Of a stretch of DNA of 64,000 nucleotides, positions 16,184-51,832 are shown piece by piece. The stretch comes from Campylobacterota bacterium (lineage in GTDB: Bacteria; Campylobacterota; Campylobacteria; Campylobacterales; Sulfurovaceae). The DNA lies in contig QKDN01000054.1 in assembly GCA_003252535.1 (NCBI GenBank), positions 62,001-126,000 of the forward strand, in the 5' to 3' direction. Numbering within the stretch: position 1 is the stretch's first letter; each line of letters starts with the position of its first letter. The notes beneath the pieces are model-generated. The model did no database searches. It was not told where the DNA came from and was given only the letters and a program-made list of their open reading frames with translations. The position numbers and the translations under genes were made by a program.

Positions 16184-16190
16184 ACCGCCA

Positions 16191-16364
16191 GTTGGGACAG
16201 ATGAGAGAGCGCCAACTCTCTCGCCTGCTTTTAATAGACTTTTGTCGCGATAAGCAACAAAAGAATAACAATTAGGATGATTCGCTCCATTGTTACTCCT
16301 CGTTAAAGGCTGACCCTGTCCCACCTCACGCCTCGCAATGAATCCTCACATCCCAATCGCCAAC
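16191..16364 (+). ncRNA. Predicted antitoxin antisense RNA, cassette copy 1 (Sib-like)
   Basis: A transcript from the TATAAT at 16178 would begin near GTTGGGACAG and run across the whole peptide ORF on the other strand. It can form a 5' hairpin (GAGAGAG 16203-16209 with CTCTCTC 16216-16222) and a long-range stem (TGGGACAG 16193-16200 with CTGTCCCA 16316-16323). The end point is set by homology with the other copies, not by a terminator. This arrangement matches Sib RNAs of E. coli, which overlap ibs completely. RNA has not been shown here. Confidence 0.6.
16231..16290 (-). CDS. Ibs-like hydrophobic toxic peptide, copy 1 (19 aa)
   Basis: Reads MERIILIVILLLLIATKVY then TAA. The core is one short membrane-spanning run of Ile, Leu and Val, closely resembling enterobacterial Ibs peptides of 18-19 residues. 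GAGGAG (16296-16301) lies five bases before the ATG, which is strong for so short a frame. Codon changes between this copy and copy 3 leave the hydrophobic pattern and the ATKVY tail intact. It probably inserts into the inner membrane and is toxic unless the antisense RNA blocks it; toxicity is inferred from the family resemblance. Confidence 0.72.
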   Translation of the reverse strand: MERIILIVILLLLIATKVY

Positions 16365-16376
16365 CGGCTTATGAAG

Positions 16377-20283: not shown

Positions 20284-20309
20284 ATTTTTACATTCTAAAA
20301 AAATTATGC

Positions 20310-20315
20310 TATAAT
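20310..20315 (+). promoter_or_regulatory. -10 box of antisense RNA promoter, cassette copy 2
   Basis: TATAAT eight bases before GTTGGGGCAG, preceded by a run of A residues. Same arrangement as copies 1 and 3. Confidence 0.7.
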
Positions 20316-20323
20316 TTTCGCTA

Positions 20324-20498
20324 GTTGGGGCAGGCAGAGAGTGGGGACTCTCTGCAAGCTTTTAGAATAACCGTTCGGTTAGCAATAACAAAACGATTAT
20401 AACGATCAAAATGCGTGCAAGCATTGTTGTGTTCCTTTCAAAAAGGCTGACCCTGTCCCACCTTCTCCTTACAATGCCTCGCAAAATTGATCGCCAAC
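20324..20498 (+). ncRNA. Predicted antitoxin antisense RNA, cassette copy 2 (Sib-like)
   Basis: 175-base cassette read from its TATAAT promoter. The 5' hairpin is GCAGAGAGT-GGGG-ACTCTCTGC (20334-20355), nine perfect pairs, different in sequence from copy 1 but at the same place. The long-range stem is kept with a G-U pair: TGGGGCAG with CTGTCCCA. The cassette ends in CGCCAAC as the other copies do. Transcription is predicted, not shown. Confidence 0.6.
20362..20424 (-). CDS. Ibs-like hydrophobic toxic peptide, copy 2 (20 aa)
   Basis: Reads MLARILIVIIVLLLLTERLF then TAA. It keeps the Arg-hydrophobic block-polar-tail design of copies 1 and 3 but has diverged in sequence and tail, so selection seems to act on hydrophobicity. 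AAAGGAA lies about eight bases before the ATG. The diverged cassette still preserves both promoters and the RNA pairings, which argues for function over decay. Confidence 0.68.
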   Translation of the reverse strand: MLARILIVIIVLLLLTERLF

Positions 20499-20510
20499 TA
20501 GCTTGGTATA

Positions 20511-20516
20511 AGTATA
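20511..20516 (-). promoter_or_regulatory. Probable -10 box for the peptide mRNA, copy 2
   Basis: TATACT on the minus strand, 12 bases before the cassette end GTTGGCGATC, matching copy 1 spacing. Confidence 0.5.
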
Positions 20517-20566
20517 GCCATACTATATTGAGATCGATTAATAATATATCAATTTGAAATATATGT

Positions 20567-31561: not shown

Positions 31562-31570
31562 CTCAAGTCG

Positions 31571-31745
31571 GTTGGCGATCGAGCTATGGATATCATTGTG
31601 AGGCGTGAGGTGGGACAGGGTCAGCCTTTAACGAGGAGTAACAATGAGAACCCTAATCTTGATTGTTATTCTTTTGTTGCTATTCGCGACAAAAGTCTAT
31701 TAAAAGCAGGGTTGGAGAGCGGGAACTCTCCAGCCCTGTCCCAAC
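31571..31745 (-). ncRNA. Predicted antitoxin antisense RNA, cassette copy 3 (Sib-like)
   Basis: 175-base cassette, opposite orientation to copies 1 and 2. The antisense RNA would start near GTTGGGACAG (31745 downward). Its hairpin is GGTTGGAGAG/CTCTCCAGCC (31710-31735, one mismatch), and TGGGACAG pairs with CTGTCCCA (31736-31743) as in copy 1. Between copies 1 and 3 most differences are concentrated in this hairpin and in the peptide N terminus. Confidence 0.6.
31644..31703 (+). CDS. Ibs-like hydrophobic toxic peptide, copy 3 (19 aa)
   Basis: Reads MRTLILIVILLLLFATKVY then TAA. GAGGAG at 31633-31638 lies five bases before the ATG. It differs from copy 1 mainly at residues 2-5 and at 14 (Phe for Ile) and shares LIVILLLL and ATKVY. 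The peptide is short enough to be missed by gene finders. Likely a single membrane-spanning toxin controlled by the overlapping antisense RNA. Confidence 0.72.
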   Translation: MRTLILIVILLLLFATKVY

Positions 31746-31752
31746 TGACGGT

Positions 31753-31850: not shown

Positions 31851-32474
31851 TTACACAATACTGACTCTCTCTTTAGAAGTGAGAAGTCCGCCGGTAAAGT
31901 TTATGATTTTTTCTTTTACCTCCTCGGATGAAGATAGCTTCGCAGCTTCAAGTTCTGCCGGTGTAATGCCTACCACCTGCAATATATCGACTTCACCGGA
32001 TTGAAGAGAAAAACTTTCAGGGAAATTTAGAGGGTGGACGAACATCATGGTTTTGATGGTTTCCGATAAAGCAAGAGGAACTCGGTTTCCATAATCGAGT
32101 GGTGGAAAATTCCCCATTTTCCCGGCAGCAAGGAGTAAATTGTATGCCATCAAAGTTTGTAATACTTCGATAGCCCACATTTCTTCTTTACTGGTCTCCA
32201 TTAGAAACTCTACTCCAAGACCGGAATATTCTTCTGGAACTTCTGTTTCCCACGGATTTGACATACCGGAGGTGATATATGCCCATGTTTTTCTATTCTC
32301 ATTTGGAGGGCACTTAAATACACCATGCGTCAGCCAGCGGGGATCAACAGCATCCGAATTCATACGATTAAATATTTCAATTGACAACGGATAAATATCT
32401 GTTCCGATATCACCGAAAATGTTCTTGTATATTTTTTCTTCCCGTTCTTCCCAAGATTCTTCAAGAAAACTCAT
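31851..32474 (-). CDS. Suppressor-of-fused (Sufu) domain protein
   Basis: 207 residues. Segments such as DPRWLTHGVFKCPPNENRKTWAYITSGMSNPW, GLGVEFLMET, LQTLMAYN and VHPLNFPESFSLQSGEVDILQVVGITPAELEAAK follow the bacterial Sufu domain. Bacterial Sufu proteins are frequently immunity proteins in polymorphic-toxin loci, but no toxin is present here. The gene is AT-richer than the surrounding genes and stands alone next to cassette copy 3, hinting at acquisition. Confidence 0.83.
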   Translation of the reverse strand: MSFLEESWEEREEKIYKNIFGDIGTDIYPLSIEIFNRMNSDAVDPRWLTHGVFKCPPNENRKTWAYITSGMSNPWETEVPEEYSGLGVEFLMETSKEEMWAIEVLQTLMAYNLLLAAGKMGNFPPLDYGNRVPLALSETIKTMMFVHPLNFPESFSLQSGEVDILQVVGITPAELEAAKLSSSEEVKEKIINFTGGLLTSKERVSIV

Positions 32475-49525: not shown

Positions 49526-51832
49526 ATGCTGGACAAGATCAAAAGATTCATGGGTGTCGATATCAAAGAGGAGCAATACTCCCTCGTCGACGATGCGACA
49601 TTCGGCAAGATCAACAGCGCCAAGAAGGTCGATAAGTGGGTGCGGAGCACCTGCGGCTACTGTGGCGTGGGGTGCGGTCTCTATATCGGAGTCAAGGACG
49701 GCAGACCCGTCTATACCAAGGGCGACCCGGCACACCCGGTATCCAAGGGGACACTCTGCCCAAAAGGTCTCACCGAGCACGAGATGGTCACTTCTAGCAA
49801 CCGCGTCACCACCCCGATGATCCGAAAGAACGGCGCGCTCACGGCGGTCGAGTGGGATGAGGCGTTCCGACACACCAGCGACAAGTTCAAGGAGATACAG
49901 GCGAAGTACGGCAAGGGTGCGGTCGCGTGCATCTCGACGGGGCAGTTCCTCACCGAGGACTTCTACACCCTCGGCAAGTTCGTACAGCTGGGGCTGGAGA
50001 CCAACAACTACGACGGCAATACCACCCTCTGCATGGCGAGCGCGGTGATGGGGTACAAGCAGACCTTCGGCAGTGACGGCCCGCCGGCGAGCTACGAGGA
50101 CTTCTCCCATGCCGATGTCATCATGCTGATCGGGGCGAACATCGCCGACAACCACCCGATCCTCAAGCTCCATATCGCGAAGAACAAGAAGATCACCGGG
50201 AAGAGACCGACCATCATCGTCGTCGACCCGCGCCACTCCAAGACCGCCAATATGGCAGATATCTTCGTCCCGATCAAGCCGCGAAGCGACCTCGCGCTGA
50301 TGAACGGTCTGTGCTACATCATCATGGAGCAGGGGTGGGAGGATGAGAAGTTCATCGCTGAACGCACCAGCGGGTACAAAGAGTTCCGCAAGCACATCAT
50401 GGCGAACTACCCGCCACAGGAGGTGGCGCACATCACGGGGATCGATGTCAAGACCCTCTACGAGATCGCCCGAGTCTATGCAGGGGCGGACAAAGCCCTC
50501 AGCGCATGGACGATGGGGGTCAATCAGAGCTCTATCGGGACAGACACCGTCAGCTCCATCAACAACCTCGCGCTCATCACGGGGAACCTCGGCAGGGAGG
50601 GTGCAGCTCCCTTCAGCATCACGGGACAGTGCAATGCGATGGGGACGAGGGAGTTCGGATTCACCAGCTCCATCCCGGGGTATCGTAACTTCGCTTCACA
50701 GACCGACCGCGAGGAGTTCGCCGCCCTCATCGATGTCCCCGCGGAGCTGATCCCGGTCAAGCGCGGCTACAGCTACCCGCAGATCATCGAGGCGATCGAG
50801 CGCGACGAGATCAAGGCGCTCTGGATCACCGCGACCAACCCGCTGGTGAGCTTCGTCGACCAGAACCGCCTGCGCGCCGCGTTCAAAAAGCTCGATATCC
50901 TCGTCGTGCAGGATGCCTTCATGTCGGAGACGGCGGAGATCGCCGATGTGATCTTCTCCGCGGCGACATGGAGCGAGAAGGAGGGGGTCTACACCAACAG
51001 CGAGCGCCGCTGCAACTACGCCAAAAAGGCGGTCGAACCGCTGGGCAAGACGATGAGCGACGCCAATATCGTCATGGAGTTCAGCAAGTACTTCGAGGGG
51101 AAATACGAGCTCCTCTTCGGGCATCTGCAAAACAGCCGCGATATCTTCGAGGAGATCAAGAGGGTGAGCGCGGGGAGACTCTGCGACTACAGCGGCATGA
51201 GCTATGAGCTGATCGAGGAGCTCGGCGGCATCCAGTGGCCGTGCAACGAAGCCAACCCCAAAGGGACGAAACGCCTCTACGGCGAAGGGTTCGCGTGCCC
51301 CACCGAGGATGGCAAAGCGAAGCTCCTCCCCCTCGACTGGCAGCCGCTCGCCGAGAGCTGCAACCCCGCCTTCCCTCTCGTGCTCAATACGGGGCGGACG
51401 GTCGAGCAGTGGCACACCCGCACCAAGACCAGGACGATCGACCTCCTCAACAACCTCGCCCCCGAAGCGTGGTGCGAGGTCAACCCCCTCGATGCCGCCA
51501 AGCTCCAGGTGAGTTCGGGCGACCGTATCAGGATAGGCAATGCCCGCGGCAGCGTCGAGGAGCTGATCGTCAAGGTGAGCGAGAGCGTGCGGGAGGGGAA
51601 TGTCTTCGTACCGTTCCACTTCAGCGAGCAGCTGATTAACGCACTGACGATCTCGGACTTCGATCCCAAGTCCTTCGAGCCTAACTTTAAGCAGTGTGCG
51701 GTTAATATCTACAGCGAAGCCCTCCCTGAAGGGATCAGGATGCAGGAGAACGAGATCGCAGGAGCCCTCTCGTACCAAAAGGCTGAGAGCGAATCTGCCC
51801 CTGCACTATCAAAAGTGAAAGAGAACCGATGA
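49526..51832 (+). CDS. nasA: Molybdopterin nitrate reductase catalytic subunit, paralogue 2
   Basis: 768 residues. CGYCGVGC with the fourth Cys in TLCPKGL binds [4Fe-4S]; molybdenum ligand in GNTTLCMASAVMGYK near 173. VVDPRHSKTANMADIFVPIKPRSD, SITGQCNAMGTREFG and TGRTVEQWHTRTKTR mark the cofactor folds. No Tat signal, so cytoplasmic. It overlaps cysG by four bases. With the DmsB-DmsC fusion it would form a quinol-linked assimilatory nitrate reductase. The paralogue at 37444 lacks such partners beside it. Confidence 0.9.
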   Translation: MLDKIKRFMGVDIKEEQYSLVDDATFGKINSAKKVDKWVRSTCGYCGVGCGLYIGVKDGRPVYTKGDPAHPVSKGTLCPKGLTEHEMVTSSNRVTTPMIRKNGALTAVEWDEAFRHTSDKFKEIQAKYGKGAVACISTGQFLTEDFYTLGKFVQLGLETNNYDGNTTLCMASAVMGYKQTFGSDGPPASYEDFSHADVIMLIGANIADNHPILKLHIAKNKKITGKRPTIIVVDPRHSKTANMADIFVPIKPRSDLALMNGLCYIIMEQGWEDEKFIAERTSGYKEFRKHIMANYPPQEVAHITGIDVKTLYEIARVYAGADKALSAWTMGVNQSSIGTDTVSSINNLALITGNLGREGAAPFSITGQCNAMGTREFGFTSSIPGYRNFASQTDREEFAALIDVPAELIPVKRGYSYPQIIEAIERDEIKALWITATNPLVSFVDQNRLRAAFKKLDILVVQDAFMSETAEIADVIFSAATWSEKEGVYTNSERRCNYAKKAVEPLGKTMSDANIVMEFSKYFEGKYELLFGHLQNSRDIFEEIKRVSAGRLCDYSGMSYELIEELGGIQWPCNEANPKGTKRLYGEGFACPTEDGKAKLLPLDWQPLAESCNPAFPLVLNTGRTVEQWHTRTKTRTIDLLNNLAPEAWCEVNPLDAAKLQVSSGDRIRIGNARGSVEELIVKVSESVREGNVFVPFHFSEQLINALTISDFDPKSFEPNFKQCAVNIYSEALPEGIRMQENEIAGALSYQKAESESAPALSKVKENR

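Follow-up and report, generated by a model that had tools for sequence, protein, structure and literature searches.

A probable Ibs/Sib-like type I toxin-antitoxin module in multiple copies in a Campylobacterota genome

Locus, copies and homologues

The stretch studied here (positions 20324-20498, copy 2) lies in an intergenic gap (20284-20566) of the window, i.e., the whole 64,000-nucleotide stretch of DNA that was analyzed, and is preceded by a fumarate-reductase/L-aspartate-oxidase-like gene (Pfam FAD_binding_2 and Succ_DH_flav_C). With its promoters included, the copy 2 module extends from about 20310 to 20516. Translation, hydropathy and codon analysis identified a minus-strand ORF at 20362-20424, which encodes the peptide MLARILIVIIVLLLLTERLF followed by a stop codon. 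Copy 2 had been described, in a reading made from the sequence alone, as the second of a pair, but the window holds three copies and about six more are found elsewhere in the genome. Copy 1 (16184-16369, minus strand; ORF 16231-16290) encodes MERIILIVILLLLIATKVY, and copy 3 (31566-31752, plus strand; ORF 31644-31703) encodes MRTLILIVILLLLFATKVY. Copy 3 adjoins a gene for a SUFU-domain protein (31851-32474, minus strand; Pfam PF05076, E = 1.2e-22), and bacterial SUFU-like proteins are often immunity proteins.

An RNA model (R1), built from an alignment of 50 copies (A1), gave nine good matches in the genome itself, comprising eight full-length copies (one of them, on contig C40, frameshifted) and one split copy on contig C1. 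These copies form a single clade (support 99/98), in which copy 2 has the longest branch (0.48) and groups weakly with another copy from the same genome; it did not arise by recent duplication of copy 1. In the C40 copy (L009, G000:C40:9196-9378), a deletion within the ORF shifts the frame and results in the product MKTTILLFFCCYC; ibsC of Escherichia coli carrying a frameshift reportedly remains toxic (PMC7192591). The ORF of the ninth copy (L062/L063, G000:C1:49805-50260) is interrupted by a MITE-like insertion about 200 bp long and bounded by terminal inverted repeats (TCTAATAACCCTAT) at 49948 (plus strand) and 50188 (minus strand), and a search of the genome for a further close copy of this repeat found none. 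A locus in another genome (L086, G320:C19:66-180) is a deletion derivative that has lost the ORF, while both end-pairing arms and the post-stop hairpin are retained. These three decayed relatives illustrate that the module can be lost. A mobile element origin was rejected, as no plasmid or phage DNA matched. A conserved genomic site was rejected as well: orf81 and ispA, the neighbors of the window locus, were not found next to the best homologue of the fumarate-reductase-like gene in same-genus genomes. Searches of the module against Rfam, Pfam and NCBIfam returned no match.

The species-genome collection contains 39 stretches with a 20-mer from the module (GTGGGACAGGGTCAGCCTTT), all from Sulfurimonas, Sulfurovum or related Campylobacterota, and nearly all occurrences were followed downstream by a hydrophobic peptide of 19-20 residues. 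Overall, about 60 homologues, or slightly more, were identified in Sulfurovum/Sulfurimonas-type Campylobacterota. According to R1 scoring, two genomes of the same genus carry 3-4 copies, two of genus g6 carry 1 and 12, and most relatives carry none, although these per-genome numbers are minimum values, as scoring covered only part of the candidates in each genome. Genomes of genus g19 (1.5-1.8 Mb) contain 1-4 Ibs-like loci each, often in tandem (L071, L072, L118-L123, L132-L134), with peptides including MKLLLAIIVLMVLATPLY and MKFIFVAIVLVVILTLPLY, and Ibs-like loci with the peptide MLLKIAILLLIILVFATKLY were found by the same models in f6 genomes. Like the window copies, the g19 and f6 loci have an 18-20 residue peptide and a start codon predicted to be closed, and they also occur in tandem copies; unlike them, most lack the GGTGGGACAGGG element. 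They score only about 30-40 bits with R1, and 35-90 bits with a second model (R2) whose training included some of them. Sub-threshold matches to Rfam n00280, a Clostridioides difficile sRNA family, are situated near the Ibs-like loci of L071 (999-1097, 49.7 bits) and L072 (1277-1375, 44.2 bits).

Coding sequence and covarying RNA structure

Copy 2 is identical to copy 1 at 3 of 20 aligned codons and to copy 3 at 4 of 20 (copies 1 and 2 differ at 31 of the 58 ORF bases aligned). Its hydropathy is nonetheless 2.31, compared with 2.09 and 2.11 for copies 1 and 3, and a Shine-Dalgarno-like AAAGGA (20433-20438, minus strand) precedes the ORF. The earlier claim that copy 2 keeps its peptide (minus strand, 20424-20362), hydrophobicity and ribosome site despite changes in most codons is thereby borne out. 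When 31 random substitutions were placed in the copy 1 ORF, only 0.2% of trials retained an open frame with hydropathy ≥2.0, under a null that ignores RNA constraints; column shuffles indicated that column composition alone already fixes part of the hydrophobicity. Across the 50 aligned copies, the second codon position of residues 5-12 is almost always U (entropy 0.08, versus 1.06 at position 1 and 0.99 at position 3), which, judged from the alignment, is the mark of a hydrophobic code. None of 42 aligned 19-codon ORFs contained a stop, compared with a mean of 2.2 in column shuffles, although this is a weak test because ORFs containing stops had been excluded from the set. The module hence appears, by its sequence, to encode a small hydrophobic peptide of membrane type that is under selection. 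Another reading frame, in the leader and starting with GTGGGACAG, was rejected as an ORF because length changes between copies break it.

The copy 2 sense RNA (20503-20317) has a predicted folding energy of -72.6 kcal/mol (z = -6.1), and none of 200 dinucleotide shuffles was as stable. Its 5' end (GCTAGTTGG, 20494-20502, minus strand) pairs with its 3' end (CCAACTAGC, 20320-20328, minus strand) in a 9-bp helix that covaries in the 50 copies, with C-G/U-A swaps at pair 3-203 in 10 copies and at pair 4-202 in 14. One long-range pair was previously described as having become G-U in copy 2, but the reverse is the case: all nine pairs are Watson-Crick in copy 2 (GCUAGUUGG/CCAACUAGC), and the G-U occurs in copies 1 and 3. 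Next to the 5' arm, the leader segment CGATCAA (20487-20493, minus strand) pairs with the codons TTGATCG (20403-20409) in a helix that is 91.8% paired, with double changes in four of nine pairs. A further leader arm (GCGAGGCATTGT, 20471-20482, minus strand) pairs with 20417-20427 over the start codon, and pair 32-93 of this helix covaries, being U-G, G-C and U-A in copies 1, 2 and 3. Pair 16-107 is C-G in copies 2 and 3, compared with U-A in 43 of the 50 copies. This change, along with those at pair 32-93 and a gain of G-C in the leader/ORF pairing, upholds the observation that the 5' hairpin arms are altered on both sides.

Downstream, a hairpin within the ORF (20367-20400, minus strand), formed by the second half of the peptide code, exhibits the strongest covariation of all, with double changes in 7 of 10 pairs and a score of 0.564 (0.222 when shuffled, ≤0.135 when slid). 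Such a peak of covariation within coding sequence is the most surprising part of the module. The post-stop hairpin (20334-20355, minus strand), which has the loop CCCC (GGGG on the antisense strand), shows double changes in five of eight pairs. This 3' hairpin and the leader pairings are present in copy 2, as the sequence-only reading had proposed for both hairpins. The leader also contains an element (AGGTGGGACAGGGTCAGCCTTT, 20442-20463, minus strand) that forms a small hairpin on both strands and is the same in all three window copies; as it served as the search word, its conservation in A1 is ascertained, and small changes were seen in some homologues. A possible helix between the start region (AUAACAAU) and the ORF (AUUGUUAU), referred to as M2, forms 6 of 9 pairs in copy 2, versus 8-9 in most copies. 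A codon change from AUU to AUC in copy 2 weakens M2 and strengthens the leader/ORF pairing that competes with it, where a G-U becomes G-C. As M2 showed no covariation beyond shuffles, we rejected it as a covariation-backed helix, and only frozen third codon positions speak for it (positions 110 and 113 are nearly invariant, with entropies of 0.14 and 0.24; most of the remaining third positions lie at 0.58-1.78).

That the design persists while the sequence drifts had been taken as a sign of selection, and results from the homologues agree: second codon positions are frozen across about 50-60 of them, compensatory changes occur in five helices at levels exceeding shuffled and slid controls, and 49 of 50 antisense promoters have the exact TATAAT. 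Copies that have drifted at random and lost frame or pairing, which would have argued otherwise, form a clearly decaying minority (the C40 frameshift, the split C1 copy and the L086 deletion). On the evidence of these alignments, copy 2 belongs to a multi-copy family and has diverged while staying intact, with its sequence changes compensated in the pairings.

Promoters, predicted antisense RNA and the hidden start codon

Sequence matching placed an antisense (putative antitoxin) promoter at 20287-20315 on the plus strand, comprising TTTACA, a 17-nt spacer and TATAAT (20310-20315) with TG ahead of the -10. The TATAAT noted earlier for the antisense strand is therefore retained in copy 2, as part of a near-consensus promoter (TTTACA-17-TGcTATAAT; 11 of 12 positions match, with an extended -10). 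This -10 is exact in 49 of 50 homologues, compared with 9% in the shuffled control. The predicted -10 of the toxin mRNA (TATACT, 20511-20516, minus strand), located 8 nt ahead of the 5' pairing arm, is weaker, being exact in 16 of 50 homologues and having one mismatch in 25. Better conservation of the antisense promoter than of the toxin promoter is what one would expect if the antitoxin is produced in excess. The predicted antisense RNA of about 150 nt (20321-20470, plus strand; 3' end inferred) would cover the post-stop hairpin, ORF, ribosome site and leader element. Its copy 2 fold (z = -3.6) and the conserved promoter would both fit a putative antisense RNA opposite the toxin mRNA. No intrinsic terminator was found on either strand of copy 2.

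At nearly every transcript length, folding of each of the three window copies predicts an AUG that is mostly paired and would therefore be hidden both during transcription and afterwards. For copy 2, its predicted unpaired probability was 0.00 at each length tested, and the Shine-Dalgarno-like site stayed open in the predicted folds. Trimming the 3' end alone did not free the AUG in silico; for copy 2, it became accessible (unpaired probability 0.66) once 34 nt or more of the leader and 25 nt of the 3' end had both been removed. Activation thus probably needs trimming at both ends, since trimming of the 3' end alone leaves the AUG paired.

We consider it very probable that the module is a chromosomal type I toxin-antitoxin system working like Ibs/Sib of E. 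coli, and from its ORF, promoters, pairings and signs of selection we infer transcripts, toxicity, repression and RNase steps. A toxin mRNA of about 185 nt would encode a single-helix membrane peptide of 19-20 residues, which, by analogy with IbsC, a peptide that depolarizes membranes (PMC8309996), may depolarize the inner membrane. The mRNA would be born closed, with the leader and its own codons pairing over the start codon and the 5' and 3' ends pairing with each other, so that little or no toxin would come from the intact transcript. The stronger promoter just downstream would drive the opposite strand, producing the antisense RNA of about 150 nt; by covering the stop-side hairpin, ORF, ribosome site and leader, it would seal any mRNA that had opened, and the duplex would probably be passed to RNase III. 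Toxin would then appear only when the antisense supply drops and the mRNA ends are trimmed.

Whether the copies act independently was assessed from predicted duplexes. The copy 2 antisense RNA is predicted to pair with its own mRNA at -297 kcal/mol, versus -136 to -182 kcal/mol with the other copies. Copies 1, 3 and C50 have up to 46 nt of perfect complementarity in common, and copy 2, the most diverged copy of the genome and the bearer of a private CCCC loop, has 17-24 nt with each. All copies share 17-22 nt of near-identical leader, a segment through which any of the predicted antisense RNAs might in principle bind any of the copies. The post-stop loops of the seven intact copies all differ, the only shared loop involving the frameshifted copy. 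Diversifying selection on the loops was rejected, as the rate of identical loops within genomes equals that between genomes. Antisense orthogonality between copies, which the sequence-only reading had put forward as a limit on cross-talk, is no more than plausible on these predictions.

Relation to Ibs/Sib and alternative readings

The module resembles Ibs/Sib in its hydrophobic peptide of 18-20 residues, which carries a basic residue close to the N-terminus and usually ends in an aromatic one, in its multi-copy intergenic loci, and in a predicted antisense RNA that begins some 40 nt beyond the stop and spans both ORF and ribosome site. For example, E. coli sibC is 141 nt long and begins 39 nt past the ibsC stop, compared with about 150 nt and about 40 nt for the module (antisense 3' end inferred); this predicted geometry fits that of Ibs/Sib, in which a peptide of 18-20 residues is accompanied by an antisense RNA of about 140 nt. 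The folds are also alike, in that the start codon pairs with early codons, hairpins lie at the end of the ORF and after the stop, and the ends pair. Pairings, including end-to-end ones in hok, keep type I mRNAs closed (PMC6733600), and that paper refers to a source describing a closing end-to-end pairing for ibs as well. The module differs in having an additional conserved leader element (GGTGGGACAGGGTCAGCC), in using the extreme 5' end of the mRNA for end pairing, where Ibs/Sib uses the ribosome site, and in belonging to another phylum. Ibs homologues outside E. coli are listed in published type I toxin surveys, and none of the papers searched mentions Sulfurimonas alongside type I toxins.

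The Rfam SIB_RNA model (RF00113) did not match the window piece at E up to 10 or three homologous loci at E up to 1, while E. coli loci, as positive control, scored 134-150 bits. On 152 kb of E. coli sequence, R1 ranked ibsC and ibsA as its top two matches; its best background match in 304 kb of Campylobacterota sequence, not counting the opposite strands of true copies, scored 11.2 bits. R2, trained on 21 Campylobacterota loci with E. coli excluded, ranked ibsA, C, D, B and E as the top five in the same 152 kb (27.0, 25.4, 18.7, 17.7 and 17.1 bits; next match 15.0). This ranking is read as distant kinship, not as proof, because the E-values are weak (0.025-1.5) and the common layout may have arisen by convergence. 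Peptide-only homology to Ibs was rejected, as the profile score was not clearly above shuffles except for overall layout.

Given the Campylobacterota host, the module could instead side with AapA/IsoA of Helicobacter pylori, an assignment we regard as unlikely. AapA mRNAs are closed by pairing of their 5' and 3' ends and form sequestering hairpins, one upstream and one in the ORF, during transcription (PMC6733600), and the same logic of closed ends and competing hairpins is present in the module. The AapA3 peptide has 30 residues, though, and IsoA3 RNA is 80 nt long with the IsoA -10 inside the AapA ORF (PMC6733600), whereas the module has a peptide of 19-20 residues, a longer predicted antisense RNA and an antisense promoter past the post-stop hairpin; furthermore, the E. 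coli loci that surface in the models are ibs. AapA1 reportedly opens by 3' trimming, and the module mRNAs do not open in this way in silico. It is likewise unlikely that the module is a structured or regulatory RNA repeat (REP/MITE-like) in which the ORF is incidental. E. coli sib loci were first noticed as QUAD repeats, and dispersed intergenic copies, strong structure on both strands and a near-identical 22-nt core would suit such a repeat. The low entropy at second codon positions, a ribosome site ahead of the ORF, the lack of stops (a weak test) and the lack of terminal inverted repeats of its own, apart from the RNA pairings, argue for a coding module. Equally hard to credit is an antisense RNA that mainly targets other mRNAs in trans, the role suggested for H. 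pylori IsoB/NikS, alongside a vestigial peptide. The strong conserved promoter is indeed on the antisense strand, and the sense transcript is barely detectable for H. pylori IsoB (PMC5385501), but in most copies the toxin strand retains its own promoter, ribosome site and hydrophobic code.

Returning to the Ibs/Sib-like reading, we tentatively suggest, as a possibility somewhat short of an even chance, that an Ibs/Sib-type superfamily extends past the enterobacteria to Campylobacterota, with a coding region that is itself a covarying RNA hairpin and a private kissing loop in each copy. Under this superfamily reading, the covarying coding hairpin means that residues of the peptide tail (ATR, AER, EVK, ELR, TVR) would change along with leucine codons for RNA reasons. 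If so, enterobacterial Ibs/Sib would be linked to Campylobacterota, and the nine copies in one genome and more than 60 in relatives would constitute a natural series in which a peptide, two promoters and up to six competing helices co-evolve in less than 200 nt. It would also mean that RNA pairing can dictate amino acid covariation in a toxin.
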